A DNA stretch of 64,000 nt from Nocardioides marinisabuli (lineage in GTDB: Bacteria; Actinomycetota; Actinomycetes; Propionibacteriales; Nocardioidaceae): assembly GCF_013466785.1 (NCBI RefSeq), contig NZ_CP059163.1:1612001-1676000 (forward strand), read 5' to 3'. Numbering within the stretch: the first letter of the stretch is position 1; each line of letters starts with the position of its first letter. The notes beneath the pieces are model-generated. The model did not search any database. It worked only from the letters and a program-made list of their open reading frames with translations, and was not told where the DNA came from. A program made the translations under genes and the position numbers. This document shows positions 51,338 through 64,000 of this stretch, piece after piece.

Positions 51338-52437
51338 GCAACCGACGCGTCTACCTGCACATCGGCGCGCCGAAGACCGGCACGACCTACCTGCAGGACC
51401 GGCTGGCCCGTAACGCGAAGTCGCTGGCTTCCCACGGCGTCACGCTGCCGACCCGTAGCCCCGTGGTGAGCCCGGGCCTCTTCCACTTCCGCGCGGCGCT
51501 CGACCTGCTCGGCCAGGACTGGGGCGGCGAGCCCGGCCACGCCGAGGGCAGCTGGGAGGCCCTGGTGCGGCGGGTCAAGCGCAGCAGCGGCACCGTCATC
51601 ATCAGCCACGAGATCCTGGCGCCCGCCCCGGCCGAGGCGGTGGCCCGCGCCAAGCGCGACCTGGGCGGCGGCGACGACGTGCACGTCGTCTACTCGGTGC
51701 GCGACCTGGGCCGCCAGCTGCCGGCCGCCTGGCAGGAGAGCATCAAGCAGGGCCGCAAGTGGACCTACCGCCAGTTCCTCAAGAAGGTGCGCCAGCGCCA
51801 GCCCTGGTTCTACCGCTCCTTCGACCTGCCCTCGGTGCTCGGCACCTGGAGCGCGGGCCTGCCCCCCGAGAACATCCACGTCGTCACCGTGCCCCAGCGC
51901 GGCAGCGCCGCCGCCCCCGACGAGCTGTGGCGCCGGTTCTGCACCGCCTTCGGCATCGACCCGGCCTGGGCGCCCGAGGAGTCCGAGCGGCGCAACCCCT
52001 CGCTCGGGGCGGCCGAGACGGTGCTGCTGCGCCGGCTCAACAAGCGGCTGGGGCGCCGTACCCGCCGCGAGGTCACCTACGACGCGCTGGTGCGCGACCT
52101 GCTCGCCGAGCAGGAGCTCGCCGGCCGCAAGGGCGCCGCGCCGCTGGGCCTGCCGCCCAAGATGTACGACTGGGCCGAGGACGAGGCCGAGCGCTGGATC
52201 GAGTACGTCGAGGGCTCGGGCGTGCAGGTCCTCGGCGACGTCGCCGACCTGCGCCCCCAGCGCCCCGCCGAGGGCACCGGCTGGGTCAACCCCGACAAGA
52301 TCTCGGCGCGCGAGCAGCTCTCGGTGGCCGTCGACGCGCTGACCGCGATGACCCGCGAGGCCGCGCGCCGCGAGGACCCCGACCAGCAGCTGGTCAACCG
52401 GGTGCGTTCGCAGGCCCGGCGGCTGCGCGACCAGTGA
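51334..52437 (+). CDS. sulfotransferase-like protein 1
   Basis: 367 aa. N-terminal P-loop-like 5'-phosphosulfate motif APKTGTTYLQ (residues 12-21) and a conserved SVRDLGRQLPAAWQESIKQG that would hold the 3'-phosphate-binding Arg/Ser. The C-terminal 80 residues are helical. It resembles the second copy at 53664 throughout. The overlap with HMG-CoA lyase suggests co-transcription, though CACAAT 7 nt before the GTG may be its own weak -10. Acceptor unknown. Confidence 0.85.
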   Translation: MSNRRVYLHIGAPKTGTTYLQDRLARNAKSLASHGVTLPTRSPVVSPGLFHFRAALDLLGQDWGGEPGHAEGSWEALVRRVKRSSGTVIISHEILAPAPAEAVARAKRDLGGGDDVHVVYSVRDLGRQLPAAWQESIKQGRKWTYRQFLKKVRQRQPWFYRSFDLPSVLGTWSAGLPPENIHVVTVPQRGSAAAPDELWRRFCTAFGIDPAWAPEESERRNPSLGAAETVLLRRLNKRLGRRTRREVTYDALVRDLLAEQELAGRKGAAPLGLPPKMYDWAEDEAERWIEYVEGSGVQVLGDVADLRPQRPAEGTGWVNPDKISAREQLSVAVDALTAMTREAARREDPDQQLVNRVRSQARRLRDQ

Positions 52438-52575
52438 GCGAGCGGCCCTCCGGACCTGCCGGGGACCCGGCGGGACCCGGAGGGCGAGCGCCGGGCCTGG
52501 GCCTGGGTCGCCCACCTGCGCGAGGGCGGTGCGACGCCGTGGTCGCAGTGGGCCGCGACCGGTGAGCGCAGCGGC

Positions 52576-53667
52576 CGGGTGCTGCCCGGCGCCCAGCAGC
52601 TGGAGCTGCTGCGACGCCTCAACGTGGCCGGTCGGCCCGGCCGGGCGCTGGCCCGCCGGGTGCTGGAGGCCAGCGCGCCCGGCCGGGGCCGGCCCGACCT
52701 CGAGCTGCTCGGCGCCGCGCCGCTGTCGCGCTTCGGCCCGGCGCCGGTCGACCCCGCGCAGCTGCCGGCCGACGAGCTGATCCGGGTCGCCACCAGCCTG
52801 CTCGCCGAGGACCTCGTGGCGCGCCCGCTGCCGGCGGCCGGGCCGACCTCGGTGGCCGCCCGGCTGCGCACCGGCGCGCTGCTGCGCCGCTGGCGCCCGC
52901 GCTACCGCCTGGTCGGCGACCCGTGGCGGGCCGACGCCGCGCGCCGCCACCTCGTCGCCGCGGGCCGCCCGCCCGGCGGACCGGACCCGACCGTGCTGGT
53001 CCTCGGCGGCGGCCTCTCCTTGATGCTGGTCGACCTGTGGACCGACCGCGCCTTCTCCACCGGTGGGCCGGTGCCGTCGTGGCGCAGCTGGATGGACACC
53101 GTGGTCGAGACCGGCCGGCTGGGCCGCGGCGCCGACCCGGTCGCCTCCGCCCGCCGCTGGACCGCCCGGGTCGGCCCCGACCGGGTGCGCCTGGTGCTCG
53201 ACCCGACCGCCCTGCCGGGCGAGGTCGGCGTACGCCGGGTGCCCGCCGCGCCGCGGCTCTCCGTCGACGCCATCGACCTCGGGCGCCGCGTCGGGGGCGT
53301 GCTGGGCCTGCTGGTCACCCCGCCCGAGGGCCGCCAGGTGCTGCGCCGCGCGCTGCTGCTGCCGCGGCTGCTCGACGCGCCGGGGCCGCTGCTGGGGGTC
53401 CCGCCCGAGCACCACCGCTGGGTGGTGCGCCGCTCGCGCCGCCTGCGCGACGACCTGCTCGCGGCGCCGTACCCTGTCGTCGGCACGGTCCTGGGCCCCG
53501 CCGACGCGCTGCTCGACCACCCGCGCCGCCTGGCGGCCGCGGAGCCGGGGGAGCCGCACGACGACCGGGTGCTCGACCTGGCCGTGCGGATGCTCCTGGA
53601 GCACCCCACCGCCGACCGGCCGACCGACCACCAGCCCGACAGCCCGACACAGGAGGACCCCAGGTGA
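52576..53667 (+). CDS. unknown protein between two sulfotransferase-like genes (N-terminus probably frameshifted)
   Basis: At least 363 aa, no recognised domain; Arg/Leu/Pro-rich with LPGAQQLELLRRLNVAGRPG, a PTVLVLGGGLSLMLVDLW segment and a Pro-rich end. GTG 52576 is the first start codon in frame, but the frame upstream still reads like protein (ERRAWAWVAHLREGGATPW) back to about 52480. Dropping one G near 52490 would join it to GTG 52434, which overlaps the previous stop, so the intact gene was probably 52434-53667. The stop overlaps the next GTG. Confidence 0.7.
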   Translation, partial: RVLPGAQQLELLRRLNVAGRPGRALARRVLEASAPGRGRPDLELLGAAPLSRFGPAPVDPAQLPADELIRVATSLLAEDLVARPLPAAGPTSVAARLRTGALLRRWRPRYRLVGDPWRADAARRHLVAAGRPPGGPDPTVLVLGGGLSLMLVDLWTDRAFSTGGPVPSWRSWMDTVVETGRLGRGADPVASARRWTARVGPDRVRLVLDPTALPGEVGVRRVPAAPRLSVDAIDLGRRVGGVLGLLVTPPEGRQVLRRALLLPRLLDAPGPLLGVPPEHHRWVVRRSRRLRDDLLAAPYPVVGTVLGPADALLDHPRRLAAAEPGEPHDDRVLDLAVRMLLEHPTADRPTDHQPDSPTQEDPR

Positions 53668-54881
53668 GCGCACGGGTCCTGCTGCACGTCGGCACCCCCA
53701 AGACCGGCACCTCGCACCTGCAGGACGTGCTGTTCCGCAACCGCGAGCGGCTGCTCGAGGCCGGCGTGCTCTACCCCGCCGACCGCTTCGACGCGCACTT
53801 CCTGGCCGCGCTCGACCTGATGCGGCTGCCCTGGGGCGGGCTGGAGACCGAGGCGATCGGGGCCTGGGACGAGCTGGCGGCCCGGGTGCGGGCCCACGAG
53901 GGCACCGCGATCATCAGCCACGAGATCCTCGCCACCGCCTCGCGCAGCCAGGTCGGCCGCGCGCTCGCCTCGCTGGGCCACGACGACGGCACCGAGGTGC
54001 ACGTCGTGGTCTCGGTGCGCGACCTGGTGCGCCAGATCCCCGCCGAGTGGCAGGAGAACGTCAAGCACCGCAGCACCATCACCTTCGAGCGCTTCCTGGC
54101 CGAGCTGCGCGACCCCGAGCGCGCCACCCGCATCGCCACCTGGTTCTGGGGCGTGCAGGAGATCCCCGACATCCTCGACCGGTGGGGCCACGCGCTGCCG
54201 CCCGAGCAGGTCCACGTGGTCACCGTGCCACCGCCCGGCGGGCCCCGCGACCTGCTGTGGCAGCGCTTCTCCCACGCCTTCGGCCTCGACGAGCTCGGCG
54301 AGGTCGAGCTCGACCTCGAGGCCGAGCGGGCCAACCCCTCGCTCGGGGTCCCCGAGACCGCGCTGCTGCGCCGCATCAACAAGGCCGTCAACCCGGTCCT
54401 CGACCCGCCCGACTACCGCCCGCTGGTGCGCGAGCTGCTGGCCCACCAGACCCTCTCGGCGCGCACCCGCTCGGCCCGCCTGGGCCTGCCGCCCGACGTG
54501 CACCCCTGGGCCGAGGAGCTGGGCCACGCCTGGGTCGCCGAGCTGCGCGAGCGCGGCTACACGGTGGTCGGCGACCTCGACGACCTCACCGGCGCCCCCG
54601 CGGCCCCGCACTGGGCCGACCCCGACTCCCCGCGGGAGAGCCAGGTGGCCGCCGCGGGCGTCGACGCGATCCGGGCGCTGCTGCTCGACAACGCGCGGCT
54701 GCGCCACGAGGAGGCCCGCCTGCACGGCGAGGTCGACCACCTGCGCCGCGAGCTCGACGCCGCGCGGCCGGTGCAGCGGGCCAAGGAGCGCGCCCTGCGC
54801 GTCGTACGACGCTCACGCGCGGGTCGCGCGCTGCACCGCGGCTACCGGGTGGTCAGGGGCCGCAGCTCGCGCTCGGCGTAG
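53664..54881 (+). CDS. sulfotransferase-like protein 2
   Basis: 405 aa. TPKTGTSHLQ at residues 11-20 is the phosphosulfate loop; HVVVSVRDLVRQIPAEWQENVKH parallels copy 1. It has an extra C-terminal coiled-coil (LRHEEARLHGEVDHLRREL) and basic tail. AGGAGG lies before the GTG, which overlaps the upstream stop. The last 40 bases overlap the 3' end of the convergent EcsC gene. Confidence 0.85.
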   Translation: MSARVLLHVGTPKTGTSHLQDVLFRNRERLLEAGVLYPADRFDAHFLAALDLMRLPWGGLETEAIGAWDELAARVRAHEGTAIISHEILATASRSQVGRALASLGHDDGTEVHVVVSVRDLVRQIPAEWQENVKHRSTITFERFLAELRDPERATRIATWFWGVQEIPDILDRWGHALPPEQVHVVTVPPPGGPRDLLWQRFSHAFGLDELGEVELDLEAERANPSLGVPETALLRRINKAVNPVLDPPDYRPLVRELLAHQTLSARTRSARLGLPPDVHPWAEELGHAWVAELRERGYTVVGDLDDLTGAPAAPHWADPDSPRESQVAAAGVDAIRALLLDNARLRHEEARLHGEVDHLRRELDAARPVQRAKERALRVVRRSRAGRALHRGYRVVRGRSSRSA

Positions 54882-55534
54882 CGCCCGATGCGCCAGGTGG
54901 CGTAGCCGTCGGCACCCATGCCGACCACGCCCCCGACCACCGGCACGCGACGACCGACGGTGACCGCGAGCCGCTTGCCCAGGATGCGCGAGACGATGTC
55001 GTCGGCCACGGCCGCCGAGACGGCCCGGTCGAGCGCCTGGTCGGGCTCGGGGCCGGTGGCCAGGTCGGCCGGGTGGGCGGGGATCGTGCCGGCCTTCACC
55101 AGGCGCGCCACGCTGTCCTCGCCGAGCAGGCAGACCAGGATCGCGTTGCGCACCCGCGGATCGGCGAGGTCGTAGCCGCGCAGGTGGGCGATGCCGGCGA
55201 TCATCCGGCACTGCACCAGCGCCAGGCCGGTGATGTTGGCGGGGATCGCGACGGCGGCGGTGACCACGCCGCCGAGGTTGGTCAGGAACCCCTGGGCGCC
55301 GGCGTAGCGCACGTGGTTCTCGATCACCTCGTGCACGCCCTTCTCGACGTCGCCGTGCTGCTCGCGCAGCTGCTCGTCGGCGGCGGCCGCGGCGGGCGGG
55401 AGCGGGCCGACCCCGCTGATGGCGCGGTGCAGCGCCTCCCGCACGAACGACGACGTCAGCCCCGGCGCCATCCCGGTCACCCGGGGCGCCAGCCGGCGAC
55501 CGATCTGCCCGGTCAGGGCTCCTCGCTTGCTCAC
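54842..55534 (-). CDS. EcsC family protein
   Basis: 230 aa. Hydrophobic central region (GFLTNLGGVVTAAVAIPANITGLALVQCRMIAGIAHLRGYD) and the C-terminal VPVVGGVVGMGADGYATWRIGRYA are typical of EcsC-domain proteins, whose function is poorly known. GTG 55534 is 7 nt after TAGGAT. Confidence 0.88.
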   Translation of the reverse strand: MSKRGALTGQIGRRLAPRVTGMAPGLTSSFVREALHRAISGVGPLPPAAAAADEQLREQHGDVEKGVHEVIENHVRYAGAQGFLTNLGGVVTAAVAIPANITGLALVQCRMIAGIAHLRGYDLADPRVRNAILVCLLGEDSVARLVKAGTIPAHPADLATGPEPDQALDRAVSAAVADDIVSRILGKRLAVTVGRRVPVVGGVVGMGADGYATWRIGRYAERELRPLTTR

Positions 55535-55541
55535 GCCACCG

Positions 55542-55547
55542 ATCCTA
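55542..55547 (-). promoter_or_regulatory. -10 box, EcsC protein
   Basis: TAGGAT, 7 nt before GTG 55534. Confidence 0.6.
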
Positions 55548-55606
55548 CGAACCACCCGGTCACCCCCCACCTCCTTCCGGGTCTGTGATCGAGGTGGCGT
55601 GCTCGT

Positions 55607-55612
55607 TAACGT
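55607..55612 (+). promoter_or_regulatory. -10 box, aat
   Basis: TAACGT, 7 nt before GTG 55620. Confidence 0.6.
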
Positions 55613-55619
55613 TCGACGA

Positions 55620-56300
55620 GTGCCGATCGAACCCCCCGCCTCGCCGTGGTCGTTCGGCGACCCGCGCCGCTTCGACGCGCGCGACGACCTGGTGGGCGTC
55701 GGCGCCGACCTCGAGCCGGGCACCCTGCTCTCGGCGTACCGCCAGGGCCTCTTCCCGATGCCCTCGGGCCACGCCGGCGACCCGATGTACTGGTTCTGCC
55801 CGGTCGAGCGCGGGGTGCTGCCGCTCGACGGGCTGCACGTCTCCCGCTCGCTGCGCCGCTCGGTGCGCACCTTCGAGACCCGCGTCGACACCGCCTTCGA
55901 GCAGGTCCTCGACGCCTGCGCCGACCCGCGCCGGCCCTCCGGCTGGATCGACGACGACATCCGCGAGGCCTACCTGTGCCTGCACGACCTCGGCTGGGCG
56001 CACAGCGTCGAGACCTGGCACGAGGGCCGGCTGGTCGGCGGGCTGTACGGCGTGGCGACCGGTGGGCTCTTCGCCGGCGAGTCGATGTTCCACCACGAGA
56101 CCGACGCCTCGAAGGTCGCCCTGGTGGCGCTGGTGGGCCTGCTCGACGACGAGCACGCCGCCGACCGGCTGCTCGACGTGCAGTGGAGCACCGCCCACCT
56201 GGCCAGCCTCGGGGTGGTCGAGATCGAGCGGGCGGAGTACCTGCGACGCCTGGCCGTGGCGGTCGCGTTGCCGCTGCCGAAGGTCTTCTCCGACGCCTGA
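55620..56300 (+). CDS. aat: leucyl/phenylalanyl-tRNA-protein transferase
   Basis: 226 aa. It adds Leu or Phe from tRNA to N-terminal Arg/Lys of proteins, marking them for ClpAP/ClpS degradation (N-degron pathway). Blocks YRQGLFPMP, WFCPVERGVLPLD, GWIDDDIREAYLCLHDLGWAHSVE and LYGVATGGLFAGESMFH are diagnostic. GTG 55620 is 7 nt after TAACGT; GTG 55599 lies upstream of that box and was rejected. Confidence 0.95.
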   Translation: MPIEPPASPWSFGDPRRFDARDDLVGVGADLEPGTLLSAYRQGLFPMPSGHAGDPMYWFCPVERGVLPLDGLHVSRSLRRSVRTFETRVDTAFEQVLDACADPRRPSGWIDDDIREAYLCLHDLGWAHSVETWHEGRLVGGLYGVATGGLFAGESMFHHETDASKVALVALVGLLDDEHAADRLLDVQWSTAHLASLGVVEIERAEYLRRLAVAVALPLPKVFSDA

Positions 56301-56332
56301 ACCCGCCCCGTCCCCCCTCCCAGGAGCTGACC

Positions 56333-56797
56333 GTGCACCACCCCCTCCGTCCCCTCCACCGCTCCGCCCTGCGCCCGCTGGCCGGCGTCGCCGGGCTGGC
56401 CCTCGTCCTGGGCGGCGCTGCCGCCTGCGGCAGCGACGAGCCCTCCGCCGCGCCCGAGGACGCCTCCCAGGAGGACTTCTGCCAGGTCTACGCCGACATC
56501 GAGTCTGACGGCGGCGAGGACCTCGACAGCGTCAAGGAGGCGGTCGAGCAGCTCATCGAGGTCGGCACCCCCGACGACATCCCCGACGAGGCCCGCGCGG
56601 GCTTCGAGACCCTCGGCGAGCTGGTGCGGGAGGCGGACGACGAGACCGACCTCGAGACCCTGGGCGAGGACCTGGGCCCGGAGGTGCAGGGCAGCTTCGT
56701 GGCCTTCCTCGGCTACGTCACCGAGACCTGCGCCGACGAGCTCGACCTGCCCACCGCGGACGACCTCGGCCAGCTCGACCCCGACCTGCAGGAGTAG
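56333..56797 (+). CDS. small acidic lipoprotein, paralogue 1
   Basis: 154 aa. Signal peptide ending in the lipobox GGAAACGSD, then a very acidic helical domain with two further cysteines (DFCQVYADI and ETCADEL). Resembles the protein at 56988 in length, lipobox, FC motif and the DDIPDEARAGFETL segment. AGGAG 6-7 nt before the GTG. Function unknown. Confidence 0.82.
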   Translation: MHHPLRPLHRSALRPLAGVAGLALVLGGAAACGSDEPSAAPEDASQEDFCQVYADIESDGGEDLDSVKEAVEQLIEVGTPDDIPDEARAGFETLGELVREADDETDLETLGEDLGPEVQGSFVAFLGYVTETCADELDLPTADDLGQLDPDLQE

Positions 56798-56801
56798 GGC
56801 C

Positions 56802-56890
56802 GAGCAGTCACTTGTGAACCCTCGAGCGGTCACTTTCGAACCCGGCCGTGGGTCGAAAGTGACTGGTCGGTGGTTCAGAAGTGACCGCTC
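56802..56890. repeat. 22-bp repeat, family C, locus 1 (two units head-to-head with two)
   Basis: Units 56802-56823 and 56824-56845 in one orientation, one central base, then 56847-56868 and 56869-56890 in the other. Units carry GAA(A/G)(A/G)TGAC and end in GACCGCTC or GACTGGTC. Fills most of the space between the two lipoprotein genes. Confidence 0.9.
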
Positions 56891-56987
56891 GGCCGGCGGC
56901 GCCGTTCAGGTTCCTCTCGGGAAGGTGTGGCACCGTCGAGGGCTGCGTCGGGCGGCTGCCCGGCGCCCTCGATCGGAAGGACCCCCC

Positions 56988-57485
56988 GTGAAGCACGCTC
57001 TCGCCCCCCTCGCGGTGCTCGTCGCCCTGACGGCCACCGCCTGCGGCTCCGACGACGAGACGAACGACGCGGCCGCCGAGCCCACGACGGCGTCGTCGGC
57101 CTCGGCCGGCGGCGAGCCGGGCAGCGACGCCGCGTTCTGCACCGCGCTCGTCGGCAACGGCGCCCTGGAGGACGGCTCGGACGTCGAGCAGCTCGAGGCC
57201 GGCCTGACCGCCAGCGGCATCCCGGACGACGCTCCGCAGGACGCCGCGAAGGGCTTCGACGTCTACCTCGACATCCTCGCCGACATCGACGCCGACGCCA
57301 GCGCCGAGGACCTCGCGGCCATGGACGACTTCGACCTCTCCAAGGCCCAGCAGGACCAGATGAACGCGCTGGTGCAGTACGCCGGCGCGACGTGCGCCGA
57401 GACCGGCACCGAGGGCGGTGCCGAGGACGGCACCGACGAGGAGTCGGCGCCCGCCGAGGAGCAGGACGGCTCCTCCGAGCAGTGA
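56988..57485 (+). CDS. small acidic lipoprotein, paralogue 2
   Basis: 165 aa. Lipobox TATACGSDD, Thr/Ser/Ala-rich linker, helical domain with AFCTALVGNGA and GATCAETG cysteines, and a Glu/Gly-rich tail. Related to the preceding lipoprotein. GGAAGG 7 nt before the GTG. Function unknown. Confidence 0.82.
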   Translation: MKHALAPLAVLVALTATACGSDDETNDAAAEPTTASSASAGGEPGSDAAFCTALVGNGALEDGSDVEQLEAGLTASGIPDDAPQDAAKGFDVYLDILADIDADASAEDLAAMDDFDLSKAQQDQMNALVQYAGATCAETGTEGGAEDGTDEESAPAEEQDGSSEQ

Positions 57486-57498
57486 GCAGCGGCCCCTG

Positions 57499-57834
57499 CT
57501 AGACGACCTGGGGCGGTCGGCCGGTCTCGCTGACCATCGGCCGGCCGGCCGCCTGCCAGTCGAGCATCCCGCCGTCGAGGTTGACCACGTCGTGGCCCTG
57601 CTGGCCCAGCCACGCCACGGCCTGGGCCGAGCGGCCCCCGATGCGGCATACGACCAGCACCTGGCCGTCGGGCACCTCCCCGACGCGGGCCCCGAGCTCG
57701 CCGAGCGGGATGTGCACGGCGCCGTCGATGTGGCCGTGCTCCCACTCCGCGGGTTCGCGGACGTCGAGCACCCCGAGGCCGTCGGGCACCGGGTCGGGCA
57801 CGCCGTCTACGTGGACGGTCGGGATCGTGGTCAT
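57499..57834 (-). CDS. rhodanese-like domain protein
   Basis: 111-aa single-domain rhodanese with LDVREPAEWEHGHIDGAVHIP and active-site loop VCRIGGRS (catalytic Cys). Sulfurtransferase or persulfide-handling role. Ribosome site GGGAGGAA before the ATG; -10 TAGGAT at 57861-57866. Divergent from the chromate transporter. Confidence 0.93.
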   Translation of the reverse strand: MTTIPTVHVDGVPDPVPDGLGVLDVREPAEWEHGHIDGAVHIPLGELGARVGEVPDGQVLVVCRIGGRSAQAVAWLGQQGHDVVNLDGGMLDWQAAGRPMVSETGRPPQVV

Positions 57835-57860
57835 GGGTTCCTCCCCTGGACGACCCGTCC

Positions 57861-57866
57861 ATCCTA
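57861..57866 (-). promoter_or_regulatory. -10 box, rhodanese (short leader)
   Basis: TAGGAT 26 nt before ATG 57834; the leader has GGGAGGAA. Confidence 0.5.
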
Positions 57867-57892
57867 GGGCCGCCGGCGGACCTGCGCGCCCG

Positions 57893-57898
57893 TAGTCT
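57893..57898 (+). promoter_or_regulatory. -10 box, chrA
   Basis: TAGTCT, 6 nt before GTG 57905. Confidence 0.6.
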
Positions 57899-57904
57899 CC
57901 TCGC

Positions 57905-59263
57905 GTGAGCCGACCCGCTGGCGACGTCATCGCGCTGCGTGCCGCAGCGCGGGTGTGGTTCGCGATCTCGCTGCAGACCTTCGGCGGCCCGGCGGGCCAG
58001 ATCGCGGTCATGCAGCGGGTGCTCGTCGAGGAGACCCGCTGGATCGGCCAGCAGCGCTTCCTCTTCGCGCTGTCCTACTGCACCCTGCTGCCAGGTCCCG
58101 AGGCCCAGCAGCTCGCGACGTACGTCGGGTGGCTGCTCAACGGCGTGCGCGGGGCGCTGGTCGCGGGCGTGCTGTTCATCCTGCCCGGGGTCGTGGCGCT
58201 GCTGGTGCTCTCCGGCGTCTACGTGACGTACGGCGAGACCACGCTGGTGCAGGCGCTGTTCCTGGGGCTGGCGCCCGCGGTGGTCGCGATCGTCGCGCAG
58301 GCGGTGGTGCGGGTGGCCCGCCGGGCGCTGGTACACCGCTCGCTGCTCGGTGTGGCGGTGGCCTCCTTCGCCGCGCTCGCCCTGCTCGGCGTGCCCTTCC
58401 CCGCGGTGGTGGCCCTGGCCGGGCTCGTCGGGTGGCTGCTCTCGCGGGTGCTGCCCGGTCTCGCCCGGCCGGCGGCGCCCGCGGCCGGGGGCGGCCCGCC
58501 GCCGCTCATCGCCGACGACGCGCTGCACAGCGAGCCGCCGGGGGCGCGCCGCTCGGGCCTGGTCCTGGCGGTGGGCCTGACCCTGTGGGCGGCCCCGGTG
58601 GTGGCGGCGGCGCTGCTGCTGGGCCGCTCGAGCATCCTGGTCGACCAGGGCCTGTTCTTCTCCGGCGCGGCGCTGGTCACCTTCGGCGGTGCCTACGCCG
58701 TGCTGGCCTACGTCGCGCAGCAGGCCGTGGAGGTCTACGGCTGGCTGGGGCCCGGCGAGATGGTGCGCGGCCTGGCGCTCGCCGAGACCACGCCGGGGCC
58801 GCTGGTGATGGTCGTGCAGTTCGTCGCCTTCGTCGGCGCCTACCGCGCACCGGGCCCGCTGGACCCGTGGGTGGCGGCGGTGCTGGCCGCGCTGCTGACC
58901 ACGTGGGTCACCTTCGTGCCCTGCTTCCTCTTCATCCTGCTCGGGGCGCCGTACGTCGAGCGGTTGCGCGGCAACCGCGCCCTGGCCGGCGCGCTGGCCG
59001 GGATCACCGCGGCCGTGGTCGGGGTGATCGCCCACCTGGGCCTCTACTTCGCGCTGCACACGCTGGTGCGCAGCACCGGGACGGCCGCCTGGGGGCCGTT
59101 CTCGGTCGAGTACCCGCTGCTCGACACGGTGCGCTGGCCGGCGCTCGCCGTGGCCCTGCTCGCCGCGGTGCTGGTGCTGCGGCTCGACTGGCCGGTGCTG
59201 CGGGTGCTGGGCGTGTGCGCGGCGGCGGGCGTGGTGCTCGGGCTCAGCGTCGGGGTCGGGTAG
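57905..59263 (+). CDS. chrA: chromate transporter, long-chain ChrA type
   Basis: 452 aa with two homologous CHR halves. N-half FGGPAGQIAVM and LPGPEAQQLATYVGW, C-half FGGAYAVLAYVAQQAV and ETTPGPLVMVVQFVAFVGAY are the paired CHR motifs. Exports chromate from the cytoplasm. GTG 57905 is 6 nt after TAGTCT. Confidence 0.95.
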   Translation: MSRPAGDVIALRAAARVWFAISLQTFGGPAGQIAVMQRVLVEETRWIGQQRFLFALSYCTLLPGPEAQQLATYVGWLLNGVRGALVAGVLFILPGVVALLVLSGVYVTYGETTLVQALFLGLAPAVVAIVAQAVVRVARRALVHRSLLGVAVASFAALALLGVPFPAVVALAGLVGWLLSRVLPGLARPAAPAAGGGPPPLIADDALHSEPPGARRSGLVLAVGLTLWAAPVVAAALLLGRSSILVDQGLFFSGAALVTFGGAYAVLAYVAQQAVEVYGWLGPGEMVRGLALAETTPGPLVMVVQFVAFVGAYRAPGPLDPWVAAVLAALLTTWVTFVPCFLFILLGAPYVERLRGNRALAGALAGITAAVVGVIAHLGLYFALHTLVRSTGTAAWGPFSVEYPLLDTVRWPALAVALLAAVLVLRLDWPVLRVLGVCAAAGVVLGLSVGVG

Positions 59264-59283
59264 CCGCTGCCGCATGCCGCCGC

Positions 59284-59289
59284 TATCAT
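59284..59289 (+). promoter_or_regulatory. -10 box, CmtR-like sensor
   Basis: TATCAT, 6 nt before ATG 59296. Confidence 0.6.
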
Positions 59290-59295
59290 CGGCGC

Positions 59296-59661
59296 ATGAC
59301 GATGATGAGCGCGGGTCCGTGCGCGTCGCTCGGCTCCGCCGCCGCCCTCTTCCACGGCTTCTCCGACCCCTCCCGCCTCGCCATCCTGCGCCGGCTGGCG
59401 CAGGGCGAGCAGCGGGTCACCGACCTGGTCGCCCACCTGGGCCTGGCGCAGTCCACTGTCTCGCAGCACCTGGCCTGCCTGCGCGGCTGCGGGCTCGTCG
59501 ACTCGCGACCCCAGGGGCGGGCCTCGGTGTGGTCCCTGGCCCACGGCGCGGAGCTCGACGACCTGTGGGTCGCCGCTGAGCGCCTCTTGGCCGCCACCGG
59601 CGAGGCGGTCGCGCTGTGCCCGAGCTCGGCCCCCGCCGCCGCCACGGGGGTCGACCGGTGA
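59296..59661 (+). CDS. ArsR/SmtB family metal sensor, CmtR-like
   Basis: 121-aa winged-helix repressor (SDPSRLAILRRL, AQSTVSQHLACLRGCGLV). Cysteines C61 and C65 in the recognition helix plus C108 near the C-terminus reproduce the ligand pattern of the Cd/Pb sensor CmtR (C57, C61, C102); C9 is additional. This predicts sensing of a soft divalent metal. Start overlaps the -10 TATCAT by 6-nt spacing; stop overlaps the CDF gene start. Confidence 0.92.
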   Translation: MTMMSAGPCASLGSAAALFHGFSDPSRLAILRRLAQGEQRVTDLVAHLGLAQSTVSQHLACLRGCGLVDSRPQGRASVWSLAHGAELDDLWVAAERLLAATGEAVALCPSSAPAAATGVDR

Positions 59662-60317
59662 GCGCCACCCGGCATGCGACGATCCTGGGCGCCGAGGAGC
59701 GGGCGCGCCTGGGCCGCCGCGCCCAGCAGCTGGCGGCGGTCTCGGTGGTCTACAACTGCGTCGAGGCGGTCGTGGCGATCGCCGCAGGGATGGTGGCCGG
59801 CTCCGTGGCCCTGGTCGGCTTCGGCCTCGACTCCCTCGTCGAGGTGTCGTCGGGGCTGATCATCCTGTGGCAGTTCCGCCACGCCCTGCCCGAGTCGCGC
59901 GAGCGGGTGGCGCTGCGGCTGATGGCGATCTCCTTCTTCGCGCTCGCCGGCTACGTGGCGTGGGAGTCGCTGCGCGCCCTGGTCGGCTCCCACGAGCCGG
60001 ACACCTCGACGGTCGGCATCGTGCTGGCGTCGCTGTCACTGGCCGTGATGCCGTTCCTGTCGTGGGCGCAGCGGCGTACCGGCCGGGCGCTCGGCTCGGG
60101 CGCCGTCGTGGCCGACTCCACCCAGACCCTGCTGTGCACCTACCTGTCGGCGGTGCTGCTGGTCGGGCTGGTCCTCAACGCGACGCTCGGGTGGTCGTGG
60201 GCCGACCCGGTCGCGGGCCTGGTCATCGCCGCGGTTGCGGTGCGCGAGGGCCTCGAGGCCTGGCGCGGCGAGGCCTGCGGGTGCGCGCCGGCGCCGGGGG
60301 AGCCGGGCTGCTCCTGA
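59658..60317 (+). CDS. cation diffusion facilitator-like transporter
   Basis: 219 aa with about five or six membrane helices; GFGLDSLVEVSSG and VADSTQTLLCTYLS correspond to metal-site segments of CDF exporters, but the usual cytoplasmic C-terminal domain is missing and the protein ends in a Cys-rich tail CGCAPAPGEPGC. Probably exports the metal sensed by the CmtR-like repressor whose stop overlaps its GTG. Confidence 0.88.
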   Translation: MSATRHATILGAEERARLGRRAQQLAAVSVVYNCVEAVVAIAAGMVAGSVALVGFGLDSLVEVSSGLIILWQFRHALPESRERVALRLMAISFFALAGYVAWESLRALVGSHEPDTSTVGIVLASLSLAVMPFLSWAQRRTGRALGSGAVVADSTQTLLCTYLSAVLLVGLVLNATLGWSWADPVAGLVIAAVAVREGLEAWRGEACGCAPAPGEPGCS

Positions 60318-60332
60318 CCGCCCGGCCCGCGG

Positions 60333-61199
60333 TCACTTCAGCAGCTTGCTCATCCGGCGGTCGGCCAGCGGCTTGCCGCCGGTCTGGCAGGTGGGGCAGT
60401 ACTGCAGGCTGGAGTCGGCGAAGGAGACCTCGCGCACGACGTCGCCGCAGACCGGGCAGGCCTCGCCGGTGCGGCCGTGCACCGCGAGGTGGGTCTTCTT
60501 CTCGCCCTTCAGCTCGCTGGCCGCCAGCCCGCGGGAGCGGTCGACGGCGGCGCCGAGGGTCTCGCGCAGGGCGTCGTAAAGGACGGTGAGCTCGTCGTCG
60601 TCGAGCGAGGAGGCCGGCTTGTACGGCGACATCCGCGCCGCGTGCAGGATCTCGTCGGAGTAGGCGTTGCCGATGCCGGCGATGGTGCCCTGGTGGCGCA
60701 GCACCCCCTTGAGCTGCTTGCGGCCCTCGGCCTGCAGGATCTCGCCGAGCCGCTCGCGGGTGAAGTCGTCGGTCAGCGGGTCGGGGCCCAGGCTGGCGAT
60801 GCCGGGCACGTCGAGCGGGTCGCGCACGACGTACATCGCCAGGCTCTTACGGGTCCCGGCCTCGGTGACGTCGAGGCCGGTCTCGTCGTCGAGCACGATG
60901 CGGGCCGCGATCGTCGACCTCGGGCTCGGCTTGGGCGGGGTCGCGGGCACCTCGTCGCGCCAGCGCACCCAGCCGGCGCGGGCCAGGTGCATCACCAGGT
61001 GGGTGCCGGAGAGGTCGATGTCGAGGAACTTGCCGTGCCGGGTGACCCCGTCGACCAGCACGCCCTCGAGCGCGGTCAGGGGCGGGTCGAAGGTCTTGAG
61101 CGCGCTGAACTGGGCCAGGTGCACCTTCGTGACCGCTCGCCCCTGCAGCCGGCCCCCCAGGTCGAGGGCCAGCGCCTCCACCTCGGGCAGCTCCGGCAC
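60333..61199 (-). CDS. Fpg/Nei family DNA glycosylase
   Basis: 288 aa. N-terminal PELPEVE supplies the catalytic Pro2 and Glu3, the H2TH region is QGTIAGIGNAYSDEIL, and a C-terminal zinc finger CPVC...CPTC is complete. Excises oxidised bases and nicks the strand. Fpg versus Nei specificity is not decided here. GTG 61199 is 6 nt after TAGAGT. Confidence 0.93.
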   Translation of the reverse strand: MPELPEVEALALDLGGRLQGRAVTKVHLAQFSALKTFDPPLTALEGVLVDGVTRHGKFLDIDLSGTHLVMHLARAGWVRWRDEVPATPPKPSPRSTIAARIVLDDETGLDVTEAGTRKSLAMYVVRDPLDVPGIASLGPDPLTDDFTRERLGEILQAEGRKQLKGVLRHQGTIAGIGNAYSDEILHAARMSPYKPASSLDDDELTVLYDALRETLGAAVDRSRGLAASELKGEKKTHLAVHGRTGEACPVCGDVVREVSFADSSLQYCPTCQTGGKPLADRRMSKLLK

Positions 61200-61205
61200 G
61201 GGCCC

Positions 61206-61211
61206 ACTCTA
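61206..61211 (-). promoter_or_regulatory. -10 box, Fpg/Nei glycosylase
   Basis: TAGAGT, 6 nt before GTG 61199. Confidence 0.6.
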
Positions 61212-61326
61212 GGCCGCGGGCCGTGCCCCTGGTGGTGACTCCGGCGCCACACGCGGGCGCACGACCCGGCGCCGATCGGCGCTACGACTCGCTAGCGATG
61301 TATGCCGCCGGCGCTAGAGATCCCGA

Positions 61327-61332
61327 TACCGT
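61327..61332 (+). promoter_or_regulatory. -10 box, AAA ATPase
   Basis: TACCGT, 6 nt before GTG 61339. Confidence 0.55.
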
Positions 61333-61338
61333 CCGATC

Positions 61339-62544
61339 GTGGACCCCGTGCGCAACCCCTACGCCCCAGGCGCCGGCCAGCGCCCGCCCGAGCTGGCCGG
61401 GCGCGACGAGCAGCTGCGCGCCTTCGACGTCGTGCTCGAGCGGGTGGCGCGCGGGCGCCCCGAGCGCTCGCTGGTGCTGACCGGGCTGCGCGGTGTCGGC
61501 AAGACGGTGCTGCTCAACGCGCTGCGCTCGGCCGCCGTACGCCGCGGCTGGGGCACCGGCAAGCTCGAGGCGCGCCCCGAGCAGGGGCTGCGCCGCCCGC
61601 TCTCCAGCGCGCTGCACCAGGCGATCCGCGAGCTCGGCCACCCCGAGCAGGACCAGGTCGACCAGGTGCTGGGGGTGCTGCGCGCCTTCGCGCAGCGCGA
61701 GGCCGGCGCCGACGCCAAGCTCAAGGACCGGTGGAGCCCGGGCATCGACGTACCCGCCGCCCGCGGTCGCGCCGACTCCGGCGACATCGAGATCGACCTC
61801 GTCGAGCTGCTCACCGACGTCGGCGGGCTGGCCTCCGACGTCGGCAAGGGCGTGGGCGTCTTCATCGACGAGATGCAGGACCTCGGCCCCGCCGACGTCT
61901 CGGCGCTCTGCGCGGCCTGCCACGAGATCAGCCAGTCGGGGCTGCCGGTGATCGTCGTGGGCGCCGGCCTGCCGCACCTGCCGGCGGTGCTCAGCGCCAG
62001 CAAGTCCTACTCCGAACGGCTCTTCAGCTACCAGCGCATCGACCGGCTCTCCCGCGACGCCGCCGACCGGGCGCTGTGCGCCCCGGCCGCCGAGGAGGAC
62101 GCCGAGTTCACCGACGACGGCCTGGCCGCGATGTACGCCGCCACCGGCGGCTACCCCTACTTCATCCAGGCCTACGGCAAGGCGGTCTGGGACCACGCCC
62201 CGCGCTCGCCCATCAGCGCCGACGACGTGGCCGTCGCGGCCCCCGAGGCCGAGCGCGAGCTGGCGGTGGGCTTCTTCGGCTCCCGCTACGAGCGCGCCAC
62301 GCCGGGGGAGCGCGACTACCTCTGCGCGATGGCCGACGCGGCCGCCGACCGGGGCGAGGACCCGGTGGGCGCGGTGGCCACCGCCGACGTCGCCGCCGTG
62401 CTCGGCAAGAAGCCCCAGTCGCTCTCGCCCGCCCGCGACGCGCTGCTCAAGAAGGGCCTGATCTACTCCGGCGAGCGCGGCCGGATCGCGTTCACCGTCC
62501 CCCACTTCGGCCGCTACCTGCGCGACCACGCCGACCCGGCGTGA
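61339..62544 (+). CDS. AAA+ ATPase of the ORC/Cdc6-like group
   Basis: 401 aa. Walker A GLRGVGKT at 49-56, Walker B VFIDEMQD with D177-E178, sensor GAGLPHLP, and a winged-helix-like C-terminus ending PHFGRYLRDHA. Similar stand-alone ATPases with unknown targets are common in actinobacteria. GTG is 6 nt after TACCGT. Three 22-bp repeats start at its stop codon. Confidence 0.85.
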   Translation: MDPVRNPYAPGAGQRPPELAGRDEQLRAFDVVLERVARGRPERSLVLTGLRGVGKTVLLNALRSAAVRRGWGTGKLEARPEQGLRRPLSSALHQAIRELGHPEQDQVDQVLGVLRAFAQREAGADAKLKDRWSPGIDVPAARGRADSGDIEIDLVELLTDVGGLASDVGKGVGVFIDEMQDLGPADVSALCAACHEISQSGLPVIVVGAGLPHLPAVLSASKSYSERLFSYQRIDRLSRDAADRALCAPAAEEDAEFTDDGLAAMYAATGGYPYFIQAYGKAVWDHAPRSPISADDVAVAAPEAERELAVGFFGSRYERATPGERDYLCAMADAAADRGEDPVGAVATADVAAVLGKKPQSLSPARDALLKKGLIYSGERGRIAFTVPHFGRYLRDHADPA

Positions 62545-62609
62545 ATCTCGCGCCGACCCGGCGCAGATCTCGCACCGACCCGGCGCAAATCTCGCGCCGA
62601 CCCGGCGCA
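62544..62609. repeat. 22-bp tandem repeat, family B, locus 2 (three units)
   Basis: Units 62544-62565, 62566-62587 and 62588-62609, each (A/G)ATCTCGC followed by a CCGACCCGGCGCA end. The last codons of the AAA gene (CGCCGACCCGGCG) match the same motif. Confidence 0.92.
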
Positions 62610-62642
62610 CACCTCCGTACCGGCTCAGGACGGCCCGCACTC

Positions 62643-62694
62643 GACCGCTCGGTGGTTCGAAACTGACCGGTCGGTGGTGCAGAAGTGACCGCTC
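62643..62694. repeat. 22-bp repeat, family C, locus 2 (two and a third units)
   Basis: A partial unit (62643-62650) followed by 62651-62672 and 62673-62694, both beginning GGTGGT and ending ACCGGTC or ACCGCTC. Same orientation as the right half of the locus at 56802-56890; both are followed by GGCCGG. Confidence 0.9.
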
Positions 62695-62762
62695 GGCCGG
62701 CCCCCACCCACGCACCCCTCGGGGGGAGTGGCGGGGTACGCCGCCGTGGCAGCGTCGGAGGC

Positions 62763-63047
62763 ATGAGCAGCCACGACCCCACGTCCGAGGCCATGGGCCC
62801 CACCGACGACGCGCGGCGCCACGAGCCCGAGCGGGGCCCGGGCCTCGCCGACCAGGAGGCCGAGCCGACCGTGGCGCTGCAGCGGGTGCTGCGCAGCGTC
62901 GGGGAGGAGCTTGCGGGACGCCCCGAGGAGGAGGTGCTGGCCGAGCTGCGGCGCCGGCTGCCCGAGGACTCCCGACCCCCGGAGGCCAACCTGCGCGCCG
63001 CGGCGACCGCGATCGCGGAGGGGCGGCACGAGGACGGCAGCCGCTGA
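62763..63047 (+). CDS. small hypothetical protein
   Basis: 94-aa hydrophilic protein: a disordered charged N-terminus, then a helical segment with LQRVLRSVGEELAGRPEEEVLAELRRRL and ANLRAAATAIAEG. No family recognised. ATG with GGAGG close upstream. Confidence 0.7.
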   Translation: MSSHDPTSEAMGPTDDARRHEPERGPGLADQEAEPTVALQRVLRSVGEELAGRPEEEVLAELRRRLPEDSRPPEANLRAAATAIAEGRHEDGSR

Positions 63048-63075
63048 GGTGCTCGCCCGGGCGGGCGAGGTGCGC

Positions 63076-63081
63076 GATGAT
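63076..63081 (+). promoter_or_regulatory. -10 box, GDPD
   Basis: GATGAT, 6 nt before ATG 63088. Confidence 0.5.
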
Positions 63082-63087
63082 CGCCGC

Positions 63088-63879
63088 ATGAGGCCGCAGG
63101 TCCTTGCCCACCGCGGCGCCAGCCACGACCACGCCGAGCACACGCTGGGGGCCTACATCGCCGCGCTCGACGACGGCGCCCAGGGGCTCGAGTGCGACGT
63201 CCGGCTCACCGCCGACGGCCACCTGGTGTGCGTGCACGACCGCGACCTGCGGCGTACGGCGGCCACCCGCGGCACCGTGTCGACGATGGACCTCGCCGAC
63301 CTCTCCGAGCTCGACTTCGCCACCTGGAAGCACCCCTGGGCCGAGCTCGACGACGAGCGCCCCGACGTCGACGAGGAGCACGGCAAGGTGCTCACCCTGC
63401 GCAAGCTCTTCGAGGTCGCGGCCGACTACGACCGCCGCGTCGAGCTCGCGGTCGAGACCAAGCACCCCACCAGGTACGGCGGCCTGGTCGAGCAGCGCGT
63501 CGTCGAGCTGCTCTCCGACTTCGGCTGGACCGGGCCGGACAGCCCGGCCCGGGTGATGAGCTTCTCGTGGCAGGCGCTGCGCCGGGTACGCCGCCGCGCC
63601 CCCGACGTGCGGGTGGTCCAGCTCGTCGACCAGATGGGGGCCTGGCCGCTGGTGCGCCGCGGCGTGGGCCGCGACTGGATCCTCGGGCCCGGGGTGCAGG
63701 AGCTGCGCGAGCACCCGCGCACCGCCCGGCGGATCGCCGACAGCGGCCACGAGATCCACGTCTGGACCGTCAACACCCGCGCCGACCTCAAGCTGTGCCT
63801 GGAGCTGGGGGTCAGCGCGGTGATCAGCGACCGGCCGGCGTACGTGCTCGAGCTGCTCGACGACCTCGGGGTCCACTAG
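63088..63879 (+). CDS. glycerophosphodiester phosphodiesterase
   Basis: 263-aa GDPD TIM barrel: H8-R9 in AHRGAS, metal ligands E35 and D37 in ECDVRLT, H50 in CVHD, and a later ELAVETKHP. Hydrolyses glycerophosphodiesters to glycerol-3-phosphate. Cytoplasmic (no signal). ATG is 6 nt after GATGAT. Confidence 0.95.
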   Translation: MRPQVLAHRGASHDHAEHTLGAYIAALDDGAQGLECDVRLTADGHLVCVHDRDLRRTAATRGTVSTMDLADLSELDFATWKHPWAELDDERPDVDEEHGKVLTLRKLFEVAADYDRRVELAVETKHPTRYGGLVEQRVVELLSDFGWTGPDSPARVMSFSWQALRRVRRRAPDVRVVQLVDQMGAWPLVRRGVGRDWILGPGVQELREHPRTARRIADSGHEIHVWTVNTRADLKLCLELGVSAVISDRPAYVLELLDDLGVH

Positions 63880-63895
63880 CCGCCCGCGCGCCCGG

Positions 63896-63901
63896 TAGGT
63901 T
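63896..63901 (+). promoter_or_regulatory. -10 box, SEC-C protein
   Basis: TAGGTT, 7 nt before ATG 63909. Confidence 0.6.
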
Positions 63902-63908
63902 CACGCCC

Positions 63909-64000
63909 ATGGCGAAGAAGTCCCGCACCAAGGCCCGCGACCAGCGCACCACCGACTCCACCCCCGGCGAGGTCGGCCCGCGCCAGCCCTGCCCGTGCGG
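63909..64000 (+). CDS. 5' end of a SEC-C motif protein, DUF5926-like (partial)
   Basis: Only 30 codons are inside the window. MAKKSRTKARDQ followed by EVGPRQPCPCG matches the start of actinobacterial proteins that open with a SEC-C zinc motif (PCPCGSGKK). ATG is 7 nt after TAGGTT. Confidence 0.75.
   Translation, partial: MAKKSRTKARDQRTTDSTPGEVGPRQPCPC

Follow-up and report, generated by a model that had tools for sequence, protein, structure and literature searches.

Short arrays of abutting 22-bp units are dispersed through the chromosome of Nocardioides marinisabuli (genome G000), mostly just behind the ends of genes and in the same sense as the gene that they follow. The array loci are conserved between related species and the units are homogenised within each species. 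In part of this clade, a multicopy gene of the DUF222 family, whose product is predicted to hold an HNH nuclease domain, lies at a nearly fixed distance beyond an array. On the basis of these sequences, we tentatively suggest that the arrays may be the address where the DUF222-HNH protein acts and that conversion repair copies them.

The array of the window

The window, that is, the whole stretch of 64,000 nucleotides that was analysed, corresponds to positions 1612001-1676000 of a single contig of 4,170,026 bp and contains two loci of this repeat family, which is named C. Genes were called with our own codon-score script and no annotation was used. The relevant features are the following.

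56333..56797, plus strand: small lipoprotein-like gene (codon-score call), with a TAG stop and a gap of 3 nt to the array
56801..56822, minus strand: outer left unit of C locus 1 (PWM scan and sequence), reading in the sense of the plus-strand gene that ends at 56797
56823..56844, minus strand: inner left unit of C locus 1 (PWM scan and sequence)
56848..56869, plus strand: inner right unit of C locus 1 (PWM scan and sequence)
56870..56891, plus strand: outer right unit of C locus 1 (PWM scan and sequence); GCCGGC comes next
56988..57485, plus strand: downstream small lipoprotein-like gene, 96 nt past the array and 31% identical to the 56333..56797 gene
62630..62651, plus strand: degraded third unit of C locus 2 (sequence; only the GACCGCTCG end is kept, under the scan threshold)
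62652..62673, plus strand: inner unit of the right half-array of C locus 2 (PWM scan and sequence)
62674..62695, plus strand: outer unit of the right half-array of C locus 2 (PWM scan and sequence)

The original prediction described an exact dyad at 56802-56890, made of two plus two head-to-head units with one base between the halves, which filled nearly all the space between two paralogous lipoprotein genes. The four 22-bp units, two per strand and head-to-head, were recovered by the PWM scan and in the sequence. It is the same array, but its limits are shifted by one base per arm, so that it spans 56801-56891 and three bases (GCC) separate the halves. The dyad is not exact, since the arms (56798-56842 and 56850-56894) are only 84% complementary, and of the 190 bp that separate the stop (56797) from the start (56988) of the flanking genes the element takes up 91. 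Their description as paralogues is plausible, given 31% identity with an E value of 4e-8 in a single comparison; no Pfam family was found for the 56333..56797 gene at E 0.001. The second locus had been read as the right half only, and it does consist of two right-half units at 62652-62695, together with the degraded third at 62630-62651. GGCCGG, also predicted, is present 3′ of both loci.

In related genomes, the window locus appears in several states. In G117 (81% identity) it holds a 2+2 dyad that has diverged, in G058 and G143 the array runs one way only, and in G013 (85% identity) no array was found, the site being empty. The sequence of about 96 bp located 3′ of the window array is conserved both in G013, which is element-free, and in G117, where the element is present.

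Size, form and distribution of the family

When as many as three mismatches are allowed, the unit GTGGTTCRVAAGTGACCGSTCG has 89 matches genome-wide, against none for its reversed control pattern. These numbers, together with the folding of the window array strand (z = -11.7 against shuffles), indicate that the array is more than a product of chance. Scanning of the retrieved stretches of G000, with a limit of three mismatches and with each locus required to have one good unit or more, yielded 42 loci and 141 units; the counts of loci, array forms and spacings exclude loci in which even the best unit had more than one mismatch. The elements are dispersed and extragenic (41-42 loci in G000). Both the half and the full forms, whose search across the genome had been recommended, are present: 15 of the 42 loci are 2+2, and the rest are one-sided (two to four units) or 3+2, 2+3 and 3+3. 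An exact two-plus-two arrangement is not the rule, since arms of 2+2, 2+3, 3+3 and up to 5+3 occur, and the array is variable, with 2+2 as one of its states. In G117, 2+3 dyads (5) are as common as 2+2 dyads (4), and the longest arms reach five units in G117 and six in G143. The spacing between neighbouring units of the same strand was exactly 22 bp in 216 of 219 cases over five genomes (76/78 in G000, 29/29 in G013, 69/69 in G117, 23/24 in G058 and 19/19 in G143). Units within a locus are nearly always head-to-head, and the few mixed unit orders look like weak or overlapping unit calls.

A survey of 196 genomes of the genus with a broader pattern showed that only five of them carry at least 20 units, namely G117 (95 units), G000 (78), G013 (36), G058 (31) and G143 (20). 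Eight others have one unit each, which is near the level of the reversed control (three single matches). Application of a two-unit pattern to a collection of 84,980 species, which may lack the genome of the window itself and those very close to it, identified Nocardioides cremeus SOB44, Nocardioides sp. BWSM_104 and an actinomycetotal MAG. Because the loci of G013, G117, G058 and G143 were found with patterns derived from G000 and only part of them was retrieved, the counts for these four genomes are partial. Neither the C array family nor arrays beside DUF222 genes were described in the literature searched, which consisted of titles and abstracts, with most subscription papers outside its scope. 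In G056, which belongs to another family of the order, 14 places match a related unit such as GGTTCAGATGTGACCACTCG.

Arrays at the 3′ end of genes

Classification of 41 G000 loci by their neighbours placed 20 between convergent, 19 between tandem and 2 between divergent genes. A co-oriented stop codon was present within 60 nt of 45 of the 59 outer ends, and 22 of the 59 outer ends are located exactly 4 nt past the stop codon. Of 41 gene ends near C arrays, 18 have the motif TGACGGC, compared with 1 of 148 elsewhere. When the one-sided arrays of five species were considered, with units of more than two mismatches not taken as outer ends, 56 faced the 3′ end of a gene, against 14 that faced a 5′ end (p 4e-7); 2 faced neither. 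At L043 2657-2685, the array follows a tRNA-Leu gene, with its outer end 6 nt past the 3′ end of that gene, so that ends of transcripts in general, and not only stop codons, may be what the rule refers to. In all five species, C is frequent (0.38-0.41) and G scarce (0.23-0.27) on the sense strand of the arrays.

The orientation of the half-arrays, their distance from stop codons, the tRNA-Leu case and the composition of the sense strand are consistent with another explanation, according to which the arrays would be functional elements of transcript 3′ ends, for instance Rho-loading (rut-like) tracts or protein-roadblock sites that stop RNA polymerase. The HNH genes described below would then have settled behind the arrays because the place is harmless, and homogenisation would reflect co-evolution with one trans-acting factor. 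We consider such a function possible but doubtful. It would account for the location and orientation of the arrays, but not for the fixed geometry of the HNH genes or for the narrow distribution of a family that is absent from nearly the whole genus (at least 20 copies in 5 of 196 genomes and one copy in 8). Further, the exact 4-nt spacing and the shared TGACGGC end exceed the needs of a terminator, and the window locus is empty in G013. The nuclease-address and terminator readings may also both hold.

A second, unrelated repeat family is present at window positions 62531-62615. Its unit, CGCGAGATYTGCGCCGGGTCGG, occurs 175 times genome-wide (reversed control, 2). In the 14 loci analysed, the period is 22 bp in 20 of 21 spacings and the units are located mostly after stop codons and in the same sense; at the window locus, the stop codon lies inside the first unit. 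The period and sense orientation that it shares with the C arrays hint at a general rule for 3′-end repeats here.

The link with DUF222-HNH genes

The array-linked genes are members of the 13E12/DUF222 family (PF02720, 77.5 and 72.8 bits against a cut-off of 24.4), of which G000 has 21 matches, 20 of them above the cut-off. Seven of the eight close DUF222-HNH copies in G000 are located downstream of a three-unit array and in the same sense; six lie at 79-91 bp from it and the seventh at 581 bp because the gene is truncated. In G013, six of the ten copies are exactly 90 bp from the array and two more are within 834 bp, and the copies at 1486788 and 3235162, which fall outside the scanned stretches, have unit-like matches just upstream. 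In G117, four of the seven copies lie at 79 or 101 bp, one (3742259) is outside the retrieved stretches and two further copies have no array. N. cremeus also carries an array-linked DUF222-HNH gene, with 78% amino acid identity. A middle unit with GTCAGGTTT is present in eight one-sided G000 arrays, six of which are HNH-linked, and in none of the scanned arrays of G013 and G117. Array and gene thus seem to change together.

At each of the seven HNH loci of G000, the orthologous gene end in G013 also carries an HNH gene, and because the genes remain mostly at the same loci in both genomes, their movement appears to be slow. G117 keeps an array without an HNH gene at the orthologue of the G000 1981750 site, and its orthologues of 772008 and 514646 have arrays and no DUF222 match within 5 kb. 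G000, in turn, has no HNH gene at 2710511, where G013 has one. The tree of HNH genes groups them by species, with support of 97/97 for the seven G000 copies and 97/98 for the four array-linked G117 copies; for the nine G013 copies, support of 83/95 is an open fork by the rule of the tree tool. This grouping overturned an earlier view, based on BLAST identity that included the flank, that the HNH genes are not homogenised. Homing of HNH genes into the centre of a dyad was also rejected, since no second C half was found behind them.

The arrays of G058 and G143 have no adjoining DUF222 gene (9 of 11 DUF222 matches examined), which indicates that arrays can exist without the nuclease. Similarly, 20 DUF222-HNH copies of four other Nocardioides species were searched and no 22-bp array was found upstream of any of them; for the five copies from G062, 193-385 nt were available. 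The rule that every DUF222-HNH gene has a 22-bp array was therefore discarded, and the link is clade-specific.

Other conserved sequences accompany these genes. A palindrome-like TCGAAAAAGTTTTCGA is conserved between array and DUF222 gene at L038 2617-2660 and at the same place in other HNH-linked loci, beside an AT-richer segment that is possibly the promoter or operator of the DUF222 gene. Other dispersed repeats, such as one with an 83-bp period and GGGTCTCGGCGACGCGCGTCGCTGGCGCTCCTTGCTGCTCGACCAACGG, occur behind HNH genes or arrays at L053, L057, L050 and L041. In G062, G059 and G139 (L251-L265), multicopy HNH genes have their own conserved upstream stretches, and some of the copies abut other repeats such as GGTTGAGG...TCGAAACCCC.

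With respect to the protein, Pfam gives DUF222 only, and neither Pfam nor NCBIfam gives a match for the HNH domain. The residues of an HNH-type site (C360, C365, C372, H376, C395, H398, H399 and H403) are invariant in 18 aligned copies. The structure of the protein encoded at L038 2695-3966 was modelled with middling quality (mean pLDDT 67.9). Residues 46-176 of the model align with the DNA-binding domains of Noc, ParB, Spo0J and KorB (best Z 9.1, rmsd 2.6 A over 103 residues), and residues 331-416 align with HNH nucleases (EcoKMcrA, Z 7.2; Gme HNH, Z 5.3; also IscB and Cap5). Foldseek alone gave no match under E 0.001 and a sequence search against solved structures found no relative. Z values of 7-9 can reflect a common helical arrangement, and the model, which would fit a sequence-specific nuclease, is read as a lead.

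Concerted evolution of the units

Gene ends that have an array in G000 account for 22 of the 25 outer ends scanned in G013 (flanks 90.0% identical). For the comparisons of orthologous units and of the outer consensus, pairs with a short flank match or with a match ending far from the array were dropped; in the former, units with more than two mismatches were not taken as outer ends. Orthologous units of G000 and G013 (22 ends) have an identity of 0.798, compared with 0.794 for shuffled partners, and identity within the two species in this comparison is 0.889 and 0.843. Values of 0.859 against 0.849 for shuffled partners were obtained for G000/G117 (21 ends) and of 0.870 against 0.863 for G013/G117 (14 ends), and within-species identity was mostly above the between-species values. 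For G058/G143, where no DUF222 gene was seen beside the arrays, orthologous units reached 0.836 against 0.766 for shuffled partners (p 0.009; only 5 ends). Between G000 and G013, the consensus of the outer unit changed sharply at positions 14, 15 and 17 and to a smaller degree at position 22, most of the remaining positions being fixed. The unit reads GGTGCGAAAGTGAC in G013 and GGTTCAGAAGTGAC in G000. The shift at positions 14, 15 and 17 looks like a changed recognition motif, which would also suit a 3′-end element. Independent gain of arrays at the same loci in each species may be an alternative to homogenisation. When elements of only one or two 22-bp units evolve in concert at conserved loci of a bacterium, a targeted mechanism has to be sought.

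Plain remnants of a transposon or MITE family, with the arrays as its ends and no present function, are an improbable explanation. The copies are dispersed, the site is empty in G013 and the dyads have a weak common order of inner units, although 6 of 200 random pairings reach the observed value and a common polarity of dyads was set aside as only weak. Against this, the same gene ends are occupied in three species and yet their units are homogenised, unlike dead remnants, and no transposase was found in the cargo read between array halves. A simple TIR transposon was rejected because the cargo between the inverted halves at 616070/617203 is one AbiEi/DUF559-like gene, with no transposase.

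The gene in question is flanked by C arrays at genome positions 616070-617246 (L032 2471-3647) and has AbiEi antitoxin and DUF559/MTES_1575 nuclease-like domains. A gene 68% identical to it is also located between C arrays in G058 (L233), and array pairs orthologous to the 616070-617246 pair are found at 3198238/3199334 in G013 and at 278769/279864 in G117.

Folding of the arrays

REP/BIME elements of enterobacteria are short, dispersed, extragenic, often palindromic and frequent between convergent genes, and the C arrays share these traits. The dyad could be imagined as a hairpin selected in RNA or DNA, whether as a bidirectional terminator, an RNA stabiliser or a hairpin-based mobile repeat. 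The 20 of 41 loci between convergent genes agree with this idea, as do all eight dyad strands that were folded, with z values of -6.8 to -12.8 against shuffles. However, shuffled sequences fold as well as nine of the ten arrays that are one-sided or tandem (z -1.4 to +1.0); the tenth is a G058 array with palindromic units (z -4.1). In 15 dyads, the outer arms match at 19.13 of 22 positions within the same dyad and at 19.17 between different dyads (p 0.59), and the inner arms at 15.7 and 16.3, respectively (p 0.92). Since arms of the same dyad match no better and folding is not seen in one-sided arrays, the data give no support to an RNA hairpin under selection, and we regard this explanation as very improbable.

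Searches for an intrinsic (U-tract) terminator at 56250-57150 and for Rfam matches at gathering score at 52000-64000 gave none, and both an intrinsic terminator and a known structured RNA were discarded. The suggestion that the array is a transcription or RNA-folding element, to be examined by folding, holds in part: the location and orientation at 3′ ends favour it and the dyads fold, but folding is not common to the one-sided arrays, the arms do not co-vary and the window locus has no U-tract. The C arrays differ from REP/BIME elements in that they have no selected hairpin, show direct 22-bp phasing and sense orientation, and no RAYT-type transposase was seen.

In TIGR arrays, alternating repeats of 8-12 nt are separated by variable spacers that measure about 9 nt, and the accompanying protein has a Nop domain (PMC12045711). 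The C arrays resemble TIGR-Tas in having as neighbour a gene for a protein with a possible HNH domain, but the protein is DUF222 and a TIGR-like guide array was dismissed, since C units abut without the variable spacers of CRISPR or TIGR repeats (216 of 219 neighbours at 22 bp).

A proposed role of the arrays as a nuclease address

In the reading that we favour, C arrays would be short dispersed elements at transcript 3′ ends, in the sense of the preceding gene, and would constitute the binding or landing site of the multicopy DUF222-HNH protein (13E12 type) in this Nocardioides clade. The ParB/Noc-like domain would bind helically phased 22-bp units, two turns apart, and the HNH domain would cut the arrays. 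The break would be repaired from another array or from an array carrying the nuclease gene, and the repair would copy units, and sometimes the nuclease gene itself, between loci. Copying between loci would explain why array positions are conserved and sequences homogenised, and the 2+2 array of the window would be an HNH-free copy. The observations ask for a mechanism under which array positions stay fixed, transcript ends are preferred in one orientation, 22-90-bp units are homogenised together with the nuclease genes next to them, and the gene can be gained or lost. Binding, cutting and repair-driven copying, the steps that we infer, would account for most of the facts, but not for the arrays in species without a linked gene.

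The behaviour of two known systems makes a nuclease address plausible. REP13E12 loci are described as gene-conversion hot spots in M. tuberculosis, and the 13E12-type genes of this bacterium are presented there as being without defined function (PMC13061034). The multicopy DUF222 genes (PF02720) are common to both cases, with conversion hot spots in M. tuberculosis and within-species homogenisation here (PMC13061034). The two may differ in the 22-bp arrays in front of the DUF222 genes here, which were not found before the 20 copies of four other Nocardioides species. We know of no report of 22-bp arrays before mycobacterial 13E12 copies. The second system is the free-standing homing endonucleases of T4-like phages (seg, mob), in which an intergenic nuclease gene spreads by cutting a relative and co-converting the flanks (PMC2988022), a mode of spread that by analogy may resemble that of DUF222-HNH. 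Unlike seg and mob, DUF222-HNH is chromosomal, has several ectopic copies per genome and has a dispersed 22-bp array as its presumed site.

In its widest form, the proposal would amount to a chromosome-wide homing network, in which the predicted ParB/Noc-like-HNH protein reads the two-turn-phased arrays at 3′ ends, cuts them and keeps dozens of 44-90-bp elements in concerted evolution. This extension, which draws on the modelled structure, is speculative and rather unlikely. The fixed 79-101-bp link of DUF222 genes to a phased array provides a concrete substrate that can be tested. If such a network exists, the recognition site and the nuclease would change together in each species, the landing site would be the one place behind a gene where insertion does little harm, and the domain of unknown function DUF222 would turn out to be a homing nuclease with sequence specificity.
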